From assembly GCA_947467375.1 (NCBI GenBank), contig CANIHL010000003.1, positions 1-64,000 on the forward strand: a stretch of DNA of 64,000 bases, written 5' to 3'. Below are positions 47,443 to 51,358 of this stretch, one piece after another. Within the stretch, counting starts at the first letter, position 1. Every line of letters starts with the position of its first letter. The DNA is from Acidimicrobiaceae bacterium. Its GTDB lineage: Bacteria > Actinomycetota > Acidimicrobiia > Acidimicrobiales > Ilumatobacteraceae. Under the pieces are notes generated by a model that did no database searches, was not told the DNA's origin, and worked only from the letters and a program-made list of their open reading frames with translations. The translations under genes were made by a program, and so were the position numbers.

Positions 47443-49341
47443 CTAGATGGACTTGAGAAATTGCGCCACCTCTGAGAATTCAATGGTGCGTTTCATTGGT
47501 GGCAACGTGGAGACAAGTTTTTTCCCGTATCCCTTAGTGGCAAGTCTCGGATCAAGAATCGCTACCACACCTGTGTCTTTGCGCGACCGAATCAATCGAC
47601 CAGCAGCCTGAGCAAGTTGCGTAGCTGCAAGTGGAATATCAATCTCGCTAAATGAAGTTTTTCCAATTTCGTCGCGTCGGGCACTCAGCAATGGATCATC
47701 CGGACGTGGGAACGGGATTTTGTCAATGACAACAAGGCTGAGGGTTTGTCCAGGAACATCAACGCCTTGAAAGAATCCAGCGGTTGCAAACAGACAAGAC
47801 GATTCCTCTGCAGCGAATGCATCAACGAGTGCCATTTTCGGCAAGTCATCTTGACGCCAAACTTTGTATTCAAGACGCCTTGACATCTCATCCGCTGCGG
47901 CGTGCATTGCGCGATAAGTGGTAAATAGGGCCAGGGTTCGGCCTTGTGCTGCATTGATTAACTTTTCTAATTCACCATGTACCGCGTCATCTCGTCGCGG
48001 ATCATTTGGTAATGGCAGATGCTTTGCACAATACAAAATTGCTGAATTCTCGTAATCGAAAGGGCTTCCAACATCAATTGCATCAACTTCATCTTCCTCG
48101 AGGCCCACGCGAGCAGGCATTGCGAGCGGAATCGTGGCACTCGTGAGGATTGCTGTTCGCTTTGACCACACACCGCTATTCAGAGAAGGGCCAACGTGGA
48201 GAGGCGCAAGTTCCAATACGGGCCTGTCTTTGCTTCCGCTCACGAATGCAACGGTTCGTGAACCCGCGGTGAGTGAGCCATCGATGACATCGATCAATCG
48301 ATTGCTGAGCATTTGACCCCTCAATATTCGTTGTTTCGCTGATTCGTCATTGCTGGAGATCGCTTTCAATCCAGAAACGGCTTCATCAATTTTGAGTCGC
48401 AACCGTGCAAGTACATCTTGGATGTCGTCGGGAAGTGGGAGGGGTACGCGCTTGTCGACGTCGCCTGCGATGTATCCACCAAATTCGGAAGCCAATTGTT
48501 GCAGCGATCCGGACAGAGCGTCATCTCGCACGATTGAGCGCAGTGCACCAATGACGTGTTGGATGCTTCCCGGACTGATTGCCATGCTGACTGAAGCGCT
48601 CATCACATCTTCAAGCTGATGGGCCTCATCAAAAATGACTACATCGTGTTCTGGAAGAAGCGCCCCATCGGTCGCGACGTCCAAGCCATAAATATGGGTG
48701 TTGACAACAATGACGTCAGCGATAGATGCGGAATCTCGAGCACGTTCTGCAAAACACGTTTCTCCTGACGGACACCTACTTGCGCCAGGACATTCATCGC
48801 TTCCAATACTGACGTGCCGCCATGCTGCATCACGTGGGCTCCACGACAAATCCCCTGAATCGCCAGTGTTCGTGGTTTCCGACCAAGCAACAAGCTTGTC
48901 GATGTCGGACTTCACTTGAGTGCTGAACTCTTGTAGATCAAGTTTGTGTTGCTTCGGCTCTTGAATTTCTGCGATGCGTTGTGCGCATAGATAATTGTTT
49001 CGGCCCTTCAGAACTGCCCATGTGATTTCGCGTCCGATAAGTGGTGTCAATGCAGAGGACAACACTGGTAGGTCGTGTTTGGCGAGTTGATCTTGCAAGG
49101 CCTTCGTATATGTTGAAACCACGACGCGTTTGCCTGAAGCAATTGCAGGCACGAGATAACCCAATGTTTTGCCGGTTCCTGTTCCTGCTTGCACGATGAG
49201 ATGTCGTTCATTGTCAATCGCGTCTGCAATTGCTCTCGCCATCGTCACTTGTCCAGAACGCGCCTCAACATTGGGAAGCGTGTCTACGACTGCCTGAAGA
49301 AGATCTACGACATCATGTTCGTGTTGCGCTTTAGCTGGCAT
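47443..49341 (-). CDS. DinG/XPD-like ATP-dependent helicase
   Basis: VQAGTGTGKTLGYLVPAI; DEAHQLED; FFQGVDVPGQTLSLVVIDKIPFPRPDDPL; QAAGRLIRS; alternative start at 49359. Confidence 0.92.
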   Translation of the reverse strand: MPAKAQHEHDVVDLLQAVVDTLPNVEARSGQVTMARAIADAIDNERHLIVQAGTGTGKTLGYLVPAIASGKRVVVSTYTKALQDQLAKHDLPVLSSALTPLIGREITWAVLKGRNNYLCAQRIAEIQEPKQHKLDLQEFSTQVKSDIDKLVAWSETTNTGDSGDLSWSPRDAAWRHVSIGSDECPGASRCPSGETCFAERARDSASIADVIVVNTHIYGLDVATDGALLPEHDVVIFDEAHQLEDVMSASVSMAISPGSIQHVIGALRSIVRDDALSGSLQQLASEFGGYIAGDVDKRVPLPLPDDIQDVLARLRLKIDEAVSGLKAISSNDESAKQRILRGQMLSNRLIDVIDGSLTAGSRTVAFVSGSKDRPVLELAPLHVGPSLNSGVWSKRTAILTSATIPLAMPARVGLEEDEVDAIDVGSPFDYENSAILYCAKHLPLPNDPRRDDAVHGELEKLINAAQGRTLALFTTYRAMHAAADEMSRRLEYKVWRQDDLPKMALVDAFAAEESSCLFATAGFFQGVDVPGQTLSLVVIDKIPFPRPDDPLLSARRDEIGKTSFSEIDIPLAATQLAQAAGRLIRSRKDTGVVAILDPRLATKGYGKKLVSTLPPMKRTIEFSEVAQFLKSI

Positions 49342-50023
49342 GGACCAACTTGAGTGCATTATCTAATTCGTGTGCGTCGAAGTCTGGCCATGTTCGTTCG
49401 GTGAAGTACACCTTTGCGCCCATGATTTGCCATAAGAGAAAATTGGAAATTCGCGATTCTCCAGAGGTGCGCACGACTACATCGACAGGTGGTAGTTCTG
49501 GTGCGTACAGGTTGTTTGCAATTTCGTGCGATGTTATGTCGAGCCCAGAATGTTGCTTAGTGCGTGCATGTTGGGCTGCTCGGAGTAACTCGGCACGACT
49601 TCCATAATCAAAGGCCACAGTCAGCACCATGCCTGTGTTGTGTGCGGTGTCTTCTATAGCTTGCTGAATTGCACGTTGTATAAAAGCCGGGGTTTTGGAT
49701 CCCGGTTCATCGAAAGGCCGTCCGATCCATTGAATGCGCACATTGTTGGCATTGAGCTCCGCGATTCGGCCAAAGAGGCGTTTGTGCAGGGAGAGGATGT
49801 GCTTTACTTCGGCTGGTGGCCGCACCCAGTTCTCGGTTGAGAAGCCGAAAACAGTCAGCCATCCGACGTTTCGTGCGGCGCACACACGCACGACTTCGGC
49901 CAAGTTATCTTCACCCGCTGTATGGCCTTCAGTGCGAGGAAGGCCGCGTCGTTTTGCCCATCGTCCATTGCCGTCCATGATGCAAGCGATATGGACTGGA
50001 GATTCGGGATTCGCCTGTTCCAT
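49331..50023 (-). CDS. uppS: Isoprenyl (undecaprenyl) diphosphate synthase-like catalytic cis-prenyltransferase
   Basis: HIACIMDGNGRWAKRRGLPR; LTVFGFSTENWVRP; VDVVVRTSGESRISNFLLWQ; ends ...ELDNALKLVHAS* without the usual RRFGG tail. Confidence 0.92.
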   Translation of the reverse strand: MEQANPESPVHIACIMDGNGRWAKRRGLPRTEGHTAGEDNLAEVVRVCAARNVGWLTVFGFSTENWVRPPAEVKHILSLHKRLFGRIAELNANNVRIQWIGRPFDEPGSKTPAFIQRAIQQAIEDTAHNTGMVLTVAFDYGSRAELLRAAQHARTKQHSGLDITSHEIANNLYAPELPPVDVVVRTSGESRISNFLLWQIMGAKVYFTERTWPDFDAHELDNALKLVHAS

Positions 50024-50072
50024 TCCGAACACCTTACTGATGCAGGCAGTGATGGCGTGCGACAATAGTGGT

Positions 50073-50642
50073 GTGGCTGACGGTTCTTCATTGCGACATG
50101 TGCTTGTTGTTGGGGGATCGCTTGATCAATGGAAGGCCATGTCCGTTTCTGATTGGTCTCTGTATGTCGCAACCTTGCGATCATCGGTCGAACATGTTGG
50201 AGCGCAGTGGTTAACGGTGTATCCGTATTCTGGTATTCCAAACGTCAGTGACGACGGTGATCTCGTTCGCAAGATTTCAGAATCATGTAATGCGTCGCTC
50301 GTTAACGGAAAAGTGATTATTCGAGGAAAGACGTCTGTCGTTATTGATGTCTGTGCGGATGGGCAGCAGCGGTTTGTGCGTGCTGTTAATGGCATGTCGA
50401 CGGAAAAGATCACCGAGAAGAATTTGGCAAGTGCAATTTTGGATCCAGCATCAAGCGAACCGGATCTTGTGGTGATCTTTGGAGACCCAACGCAACTACC
50501 GCCATCGCTTGTATGGGAACTTGCCTATAGCGAGCTGGTGTATCTCAACACGCAGTGGCCTCACTGCAACAGTGAAGACATTGAGTTGGCCATTAATGAC
50601 TTCCAGCGCAGGGATCGTCGCTTTGGTGGCGTTGACTCATGA
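50073..50642 (+). CDS. Divergent, apparently non-catalytic cis-prenyltransferase paralogue (NgBR/Nus1-like in logic)
   Basis: C-terminus PDLVVIFGDPTQLPPSLVWELAYSELVYLNTQWPHCNSEDIELAINDFQRRDRRFGGVDS aligns with the UppS C-terminus; lacks MDGNGRW and RTSGExR; GTG start chosen. Confidence 0.7.
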   Translation: MADGSSLRHVLVVGGSLDQWKAMSVSDWSLYVATLRSSVEHVGAQWLTVYPYSGIPNVSDDGDLVRKISESCNASLVNGKVIIRGKTSVVIDVCADGQQRFVRAVNGMSTEKITEKNLASAILDPASSEPDLVVIFGDPTQLPPSLVWELAYSELVYLNTQWPHCNSEDIELAINDFQRRDRRFGGVDS

Positions 50643-51358
50643 CGCTGTATCGCGATAAAGGAATAGTGCTGCGAAGTTACAAACTCGCGGAGTCTGACCG
50701 CATCGTTGTGCTCATGACCGAGCATCATGGCAAAGTTCGTGCTGTTGCCAAAGGTATTCGTAAAACTAAATCCAAGATTGGCGCCAGGCTCGAACCCATG
50801 AGTCACGTGGATGTGCAGCTGTATAAGGGCAGGGAATTAGACACGGTGTCGCAGGTGGAATTGATTGATTCCTCTGCTCGATTACATAACAACCTTGACA
50901 AGTTGACACAGGGGATGTCGATGCTTGAGGCCGTTGATCAAATAGCAGAGGACCGAGAGCCGTCCCCTCATTTGTACCGCATGTTGCAGGGTGCACTGAA
51001 CGCGTTGATGGAGCAGGAATCGCCCGTCATGCTTGCATCGTTTTACTGGAAGCTGTTAGCGGCAGAGGGGGTGAGCCCGCAGGTGCGATTGTGCGTTGCC
51101 TGTGGTTCTACACAAGATCTCGTAGCGTTCGACATTTTTCAAGGTGGGGTGCAATGTCGGTCTTGTCGCACAGGAATCAGTATTTCTCAACCAGCCATTG
51201 ATTTATTGCAGCAGGTTTTGGGTGGTCATCTCAATGTTGCATTGGCTCAACCCGAATCACCAGCAAGTTTTGAGTTGCAGCAACTTGCAACTCAGGCAAT
51301 GGAGCATCACATTGAAAGACGGTTGCGGTCGGTCGCAATGTTCAGTCCTCGTCACTAG
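50639..51358 (+). CDS. recO: DNA repair protein RecO
   Basis: DKGIVLRSYKLAESDRIVVLMTEHHGKVRAVAKGIRKTKSKIGARLEP; CVACG...CRSC zinc motif. Confidence 0.95.
   Translation: MTLYRDKGIVLRSYKLAESDRIVVLMTEHHGKVRAVAKGIRKTKSKIGARLEPMSHVDVQLYKGRELDTVSQVELIDSSARLHNNLDKLTQGMSMLEAVDQIAEDREPSPHLYRMLQGALNALMEQESPVMLASFYWKLLAAEGVSPQVRLCVACGSTQDLVAFDIFQGGVQCRSCRTGISISQPAIDLLQQVLGGHLNVALAQPESPASFELQQLATQAMEHHIERRLRSVAMFSPRH

Follow-up and report, generated by a model that had tools for sequence, protein, structure and literature searches.

A Divergent Gene Pair of Ilumatobacteraceae Very Likely Encodes a Heteromeric Undecaprenyl Diphosphate Synthase

Genomic Location and Organisation of the Locus

The window, meaning here the whole stretch of 64,000 nucleotides that was analysed (positions 1 to 64,000 of contig CANIHL010000003.1, GenBank assembly GCA_947467375.1), belongs to a 1.68-Mb draft genome assembly of the Ilumatobacteraceae. 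A divergent gene pair is located at about 50 kb and comprises a minus-strand gene of undecaprenyl diphosphate synthase (UppS; 49331–50065) and a plus-strand open reading frame of 189 amino acids (50073–50642). The minus-strand gene, with alternative GTG/ATG starts at 50032/50023, encodes a protein that contains all catalytic motifs but is truncated before the RxG motif; it is assigned here to the catalytic subunit. The plus-strand frame, referred to below as the paralogue, starts with GTG at 50073, stops with TGA at 50640–50642 and encodes a non-catalytic cis-prenyltransferase homologue, putatively NgBR/Nus1-like in its role. Its end shares the four nucleotides ATGA with the recO gene (50639–51358, plus strand; TIGR00613, E 7e-45), whose ATG lies at 50639. 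The original prediction, made without database searches, had described these coordinates, the intact frame and the overlap with recO, and all of this held. A glycyl-tRNA synthetase gene follows recO on the plus-strand side. On the other flank lies a minus-strand gene of a DinG/YoaA-type helicase (47443–49359; NF053712, E 1.6e-153), which overlaps the catalytic gene at 49331–49359. The helicase ATG is thus positioned upstream of the stop codon of the catalytic gene, leaving no space for an RxG tail.

A Pfam profile scan revealed just two PF01255 genes in the whole genome, the members of the divergent pair. Three matches to PF00953, the MraY/WecA family that includes homologues of undecaprenyl phosphate consumers, were also found. 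The named relatives possessing the same gene are mostly metagenome assemblies of Ilumatobacteraceae or Acidimicrobiales, some of them recorded as 'acIV'.

An extended −10-like element resembling TGnGAnAAT (TGCGACAAT, 50058–50066, plus strand) is situated 6 nt before the GTG that opens the paralogue. Such an element is found exactly 6 nt before the chosen start in 26/31 orthologues, against a background of 0.19% of 20-mers. Because this pattern partly guided the choice of the orthologue starts, the spacing cannot count as fully independent evidence. The element supports the GTG start and suggests a leaderless transcript with a promoter of its own for the paralogue, an inference from sequence alone.

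Homology and Predicted Fold of the Paralogue

The paralogue matches PF01255 with an E-value of 3.6e-13 over profile positions 125–219 of 219, scoring 50 bits against a curated cut-off of 27. Its C-terminal half is also matched by NCBIfam UppS models, and its N-terminal half goes unrecognised at the sequence level. A profile built from 31 paralogues and compared with the PDB found chains of solved UppS structures at E-values of about 1e-21 (best 8.8e-22). The AlphaFold2 model, obtained with 62 orthologues in the alignment, has a pLDDT of 87.8 and a pTM of 0.86; it matches UppS structures with an E-value of 5e-8, a probability of 1.00 and a TM-score of about 0.6, and every one of its 50 best structural matches is a cis-prenyltransferase. 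The profile score, together with the fold as predicted by the model, places the paralogue in the PF01255 cis-prenyltransferase superfamily.

Division of Catalytic Residues between the Two Proteins

In cis-prenyltransferases, the tail bearing the RxG motif crosses the dimer interface into the active site of the other subunit (PMC7573591). In the human enzyme, the two pyrophosphate sites of DHDDS are each contacted by the NgBR tail, and homodimers show equivalent contacts between their chains (PMC7573591). In several cis-prenyltransferase structures, the arginine of the motif is a water-mediated ligand of Mg2+, and the glycine is in contact with the acceptor phosphate (PMC8131916).

The two proteins were compared in an alignment of 25 canonical UppS (24 from other families of the order and one from Ilumatobacteraceae), 33 pair-type catalytic proteins and 31 paralogues. 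Eighteen catalytic-site positions were scored, covering DGNGR, the R..GH segment, STENWxR, the next Glu, RTSGE and RISN. All 18 are conserved without exception, in 25/25 canonical UppS and in 33/33 pair-type enzymes. Among the paralogues, 13 of the 18 are retained in none of the 31 sequences, and the other five occur sporadically (2, 2, 4, 9 and 12 of 31), partly within loosely aligned stretches. The entire motifs DGNGR, STENW and RTSGE are each absent from all 31, and the catalytic Asp is replaced by Gly in 31/31. The former diphosphate/Mg site of the paralogue (50097–50132, plus strand) reads HVLVVGGSLDQW where UppS has HIACIMDGNGRW. The paralogue does not possess the substrate- and Mg-binding motifs that a catalytic homodimeric UppS requires.

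The distribution of the C-terminal residues is the reverse. The RxG Arg and Gly are present in 24/25 and 25/25 canonical UppS, respectively; both are absent from all 33 pair-type catalytic proteins and present in all 31 paralogues. The string RR[FY]G is found in 22/25 canonical, 0/33 pair-type and 31/31 paralogous sequences. In the paralogue of the window, the motif belongs to an RxRRFGG tail (residues 180–186; 50610–50630, plus strand), which is invariant in 31/31 paralogues and in 62/62 aligned orthologues. The Tyr and Glu of the AYSE segment are divided similarly, being conserved in 25/25 canonical UppS and 31/31 paralogues, while the catalytic partners retain the Tyr in 0/33 and the Glu in 2/33 cases. 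The corresponding WELAYSE block of the paralogue (residues 148–154; 50514–50534, plus strand) has its W, Y and E conserved in 31/31.

The catalytic protein of the window matches PF01255 over positions 1–209 of 219 (E 2.1e-66, 224 bits) and ends '...WPDFDAHELDNALKLVHAS', short of the RxG motif. This protein does not meet the RxG requirement of a homodimeric bacterial UppS. A tail hidden by a frameshift was considered and ruled out: no RxG remnant was found in any frame downstream of the catalytic gene, and the helicase gene overlaps it. The C-terminal end of the catalytic partner is short and variable, and no other conserved motif has been gained there. The same split of the Pfam profile recurs in genome after genome of Ilumatobacteraceae, with the catalytic protein extending to about 209/219 and the paralogue covering 125–219. 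A catalytic protein devoid of RxG is paired with a non-catalytic homologue that bears it, which is the sequence criterion of a heteromeric cis-prenyltransferase.

The original prediction had interpreted the paralogue as a structural subunit that had lost only its diphosphate- and metal-binding motifs. The motif replacements held, namely the HIACIMDGNGRW/RHVLVVGGSLDQW and RTSGESRISNFLLWQ/VIFGDPTQLPPSLVWEL correspondences and the disappearance of the STENW stretch. The claim that the loss is confined to these motifs held only in part: a stretch of about 50 further residues, lying after the second strand and before the C-terminal half, has been lost or can no longer be aligned, and evolution is faster in the N-terminal half. 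The description of AINDFQRRDRRFGG (...RRDRRFGG) as fold-defining was also only partly correct, since this segment contains the RxG active-site motif, precisely the element missing from the adjacent UppS. The interpretation as a structural subunit finds support and can be sharpened: the subunit is not merely structural but probably contributes directly to the active site of its partner. The decisive evidence, the absence of the RxG tail and of the AYSE Tyr/Glu in the neighbouring catalytic UppS, had been missed.

Distribution of the Gene Pair

PF01255 scans were carried out on sixty relatives, 100 genomes of the class and 97 genomes of the family Ilumatobacteraceae representing 24 genera. The presence of the paralogue in related genomes, proposed earlier as a check, was confirmed: the signature of the pair was detected in 95/97 family genomes. 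At least two PF01255 matches with both parts present were found in 92/97. The paralogue alone was found in two genomes (G088 and G231) and the catalytic gene alone in one (G235). In G088, the paralogue starts at a contig edge, which explains the lone match; in G235, the paralogue is there but broken by N, which explains the lone catalytic match. G231 was counted among the 95 without a resolved cause. No case of a full-length UppS coexisting with the paralogue was found among the 97 family genomes.

The remaining two genomes (G032, locus L064, and G290, locus L171) encode one intact full-length UppS. They may have branched off before the split, have replaced the pair later or be misplaced in the family.

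Outside the family, the sampled relatives and class genomes showed full-length matches (1–219) alone, fragments and contig-edge cases excepted. The paralogue profile gave no match at E ≤ 1e-30 beyond Ilumatobacteraceae in 81 genomes of the phylum. In an independent collection of named loci, the RRFGG tail was found in 80/80 paralogues, and all complete catalytic partners lacked RRFGG. These 80 loci were retrieved with a pattern of the WELAYS region of the paralogue and do not measure prevalence.

Two side observations can be mentioned. Several metagenome-assembled records titled Bifidobacterium breve, Ferrithrix thermotolerans or Acidimicrobium ferrooxidans carry a pair locus of the Ilumatobacteraceae type or its paralogue–recO part (L091, L092, L096, L105, L108, L109, L111 and L117), and their organism labels look wrong. 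Besides, many genomes in other orders of the class encode a second, full-length and distinct UppS-like enzyme, which forms its own clade and has an RVDFLRALRDF...RRFG ending (L150, L152, L154, L156, L158, L160 and L169).

Selection and Co-Evolution

The ratio dN/dS was estimated from Nei–Gojobori counts in close relatives, using pairs with dS < 1.5. The median for the paralogue was 0.12 and 0.08 in two clades (about 0.07–0.14 overall), compared with 0.06 and 0.07 for the catalytic partner and 0.03 for RecO. The paralogue is under strong purifying selection, although the constraint is looser than that on its neighbours. Its N-terminal half (omega 0.21) is less constrained than its C-terminal half (0.08, the latter from 4 pairs). 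The paralogue frame is open in the examined family genomes except at contig breaks or sequence gaps. Frameshifts or relaxed selection in relatives had been named beforehand as the observations that would indicate a pseudogene, and neither was seen.

The paralogue evolves faster than the catalytic partner (mean distances of 1.04 and 0.39, respectively). The two subunits show correlated distances even when those of RecO are taken into account, with a partial correlation of 0.61.

Origin of the Gene Pair

Wherever recO was within reach of a canonical locus, uppS preceded it on the same strand (22/22 cases) and was nearly always adjacent to it. In the pair loci, this pre-recO position is occupied by the paralogue in 31/31 cases. 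A BLAST comparison of the paralogue gave a median of 66 bits to canonical UppS of the same order versus 28 bits to pair-type catalytic proteins. The simplest reading, likely but inferred from sequence alone, has the gene at the ancestral locus turning into the helper and a further, divergently inserted copy turning into the catalyst. In a quick phylogenetic tree, each pair clade formed one group on a long stem (2.2 and 1.5), and the placement of these clades was unreliable. The tree therefore leaves unresolved whether the catalytic copy arose by duplication or was acquired by transfer. It is likely, as far as can be inferred, that the split originated at the base of Ilumatobacteraceae or inside the family, apart from the eukaryotic system.

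Two other relationships were considered and found no support. Orthology by descent with NgBR/Nus1 is unsupported, the PDB profile search ranking bacterial UppS first (8.8e-22) and NUS1 at 1e-7 or weaker. As for a RecO-linked role, the order uppS–recO is ancestral in 22/22 canonical loci, and the adjacency of the paralogue to recO, being the ancestral position of uppS, carries no information on such a role.

Proposed Heteromeric Enzyme and Alternative Explanations

It is very likely that the two genes encode an obligate heteromeric undecaprenyl diphosphate synthase of the DHDDS/NgBR kind. The sequence evidence for the pair is very strong, comprising homology, fold, the reciprocal split of residues, exclusive co-occurrence, purifying selection and the fact that these are the sole two genes of the family in the genome. 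The physical complex, the requirement for the second subunit in catalysis and the identity of the product are inferred; neither an experiment nor a prediction of the complex stands behind them. According to the proposed mechanism, the minus-strand protein would bind farnesyl diphosphate, IPP and Mg2+ and catalyse chain elongation, and the plus-strand protein would retain the dimer half of the fold without a substrate site. The C-terminal RRFGG tail of the helper would cross the interface and complete the active site of the partner, as NgBR does for DHDDS, giving a putative heteromer in which each heterodimer would have a single active site. The polyprenyl diphosphate carrier produced, presumably of the undecaprenyl type, would feed the MraY/WecA-type enzymes (PF00953) of the genome. 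A bolder reading, likely but less secure, is that of a bacterial heteromer of independent origin, in which the ancestral uppS–recO copy became an obligate helper and the divergent copy a catalyst minus RxG, converging on DHDDS/NgBR.

Several points speak against this interpretation. The faster evolution of the paralogue is one of them. Another is that RxG is dispensable in some cis-prenyltransferases: Methanosarcina mazei MM_0014 is active without the motif (PMC8131916), and DHDDS homodimers keep weak activity (PMC7573591). It is also possible that the tail of the paralogue serves some other partner.

Of the alternatives, the best surviving, though unlikely, is that the catalytic UppS is a self-sufficient homodimer with a modified C-terminus and that the paralogue is an independent protein, e.g., a lipid-binding one, carrying an old tail. 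The activity of MM_0014 favours it. Against it, the paralogue keeps the residues of prenyltransferases that act in trans, and these are among its most conserved positions; genomes without the paralogue keep a full-length UppS; and the short, variable end of the catalytic partner shows no conserved replacement motif. It is very improbable that the paralogue acts as a pseudoenzyme that binds UppS to inhibit or regulate it, without completing its site. Pseudoenzyme paralogues frequently act as regulators, and this reading is likewise compatible with a heterodimer, but the catalytic partner has in turn lost its RxG, and this implies a helper that provides a catalytic element. A decaying pseudogene, or a spurious frame open by chance beside recO, would be consistent with the lost substrate-binding residues and the evolution faster than that of the neighbours, but is all but excluded by the low dN/dS, the frame open across 24 genera, the invariant C-terminal residues and the promoter-like element conserved at a fixed spacing.

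Comparison with Known Systems and Biological Significance

The heteromeric reading has its closest parallel in human DHDDS/NgBR (NUS1; PDB 6W2L, 6Z1N), where one subunit likewise holds the complete set of substrate and metal residues but lacks RxG (PMC7573591). The yeast enzyme, too, is divided into a catalytic and a non-catalytic half. NgBR, like the helper, has no substrate site, shows homology mainly in its C-terminal half and carries RxG and a conserved Glu (PMC7573591). As was checked against 6W2L and 6Z1N, NgBR reads ...WHIRLTEIVSL...EQRLGK, with TE kept, and DHDDS reads ...WQTSHSCLVF, where HSC marks the loss of the Glu; the human pair divides RxG and Glu in the same way as the bacterial pair. 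Unlike NgBR, the bacterial helper is short from its proposed start and has no evident membrane anchor (judged by eye, not computed), and its similarity to bacterial UppS (E about 1e-21) exceeds that to NgBR (1e-7). Unlike DHDDS, the bacterial catalytic subunit simply ends, without a C-terminal extension.

MM_0618/MM_1083 of M. mazei (cited in PMC8131916) is similarly a prokaryotic heteromer, and it makes a glycosyl carrier lipid. It is archaeal, and its sequences were not compared with the present pair, so shared descent is not excluded. The homodimeric UppS of E. coli, B. subtilis and M. tuberculosis (Rv2361) share the fold, catalytic motifs and pathway position, but each of their chains gives RxG to the other, whereas in Ilumatobacteraceae the two contributions reside on two proteins encoded by different genes.

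A 2020 review described cis-prenyltransferases as homodimeric in bacteria and plants and heteromeric in eukaryotes (PMC7839719). No report of a heteromeric cis-prenyltransferase from bacteria, or from Ilumatobacter, was found in the literature searched, which left most subscription papers out of scope. The principle itself is already known; what is likely to be new is its occurrence in bacteria as a domain of life, an origin that is probably separate and the cleanness of the two-way split.

The helper matches UppS family models and would be misannotated as an undecaprenyl diphosphate synthase despite the absent residues. If the proposal is true, the pair would offer a small and probably soluble system for studying why heteromers evolve and what the second subunit contributes. 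It would allow testing whether heteromerisation itself alters chain length, free of the complications of the ER membrane that accompany DHDDS/NgBR, and the two family genomes with a single full-length UppS might provide a before-and-after comparison. For the Ilumatobacteraceae, which are mostly aquatic, the pair would concern an essential pathway, the one that provides the lipid carrier for building the cell wall.
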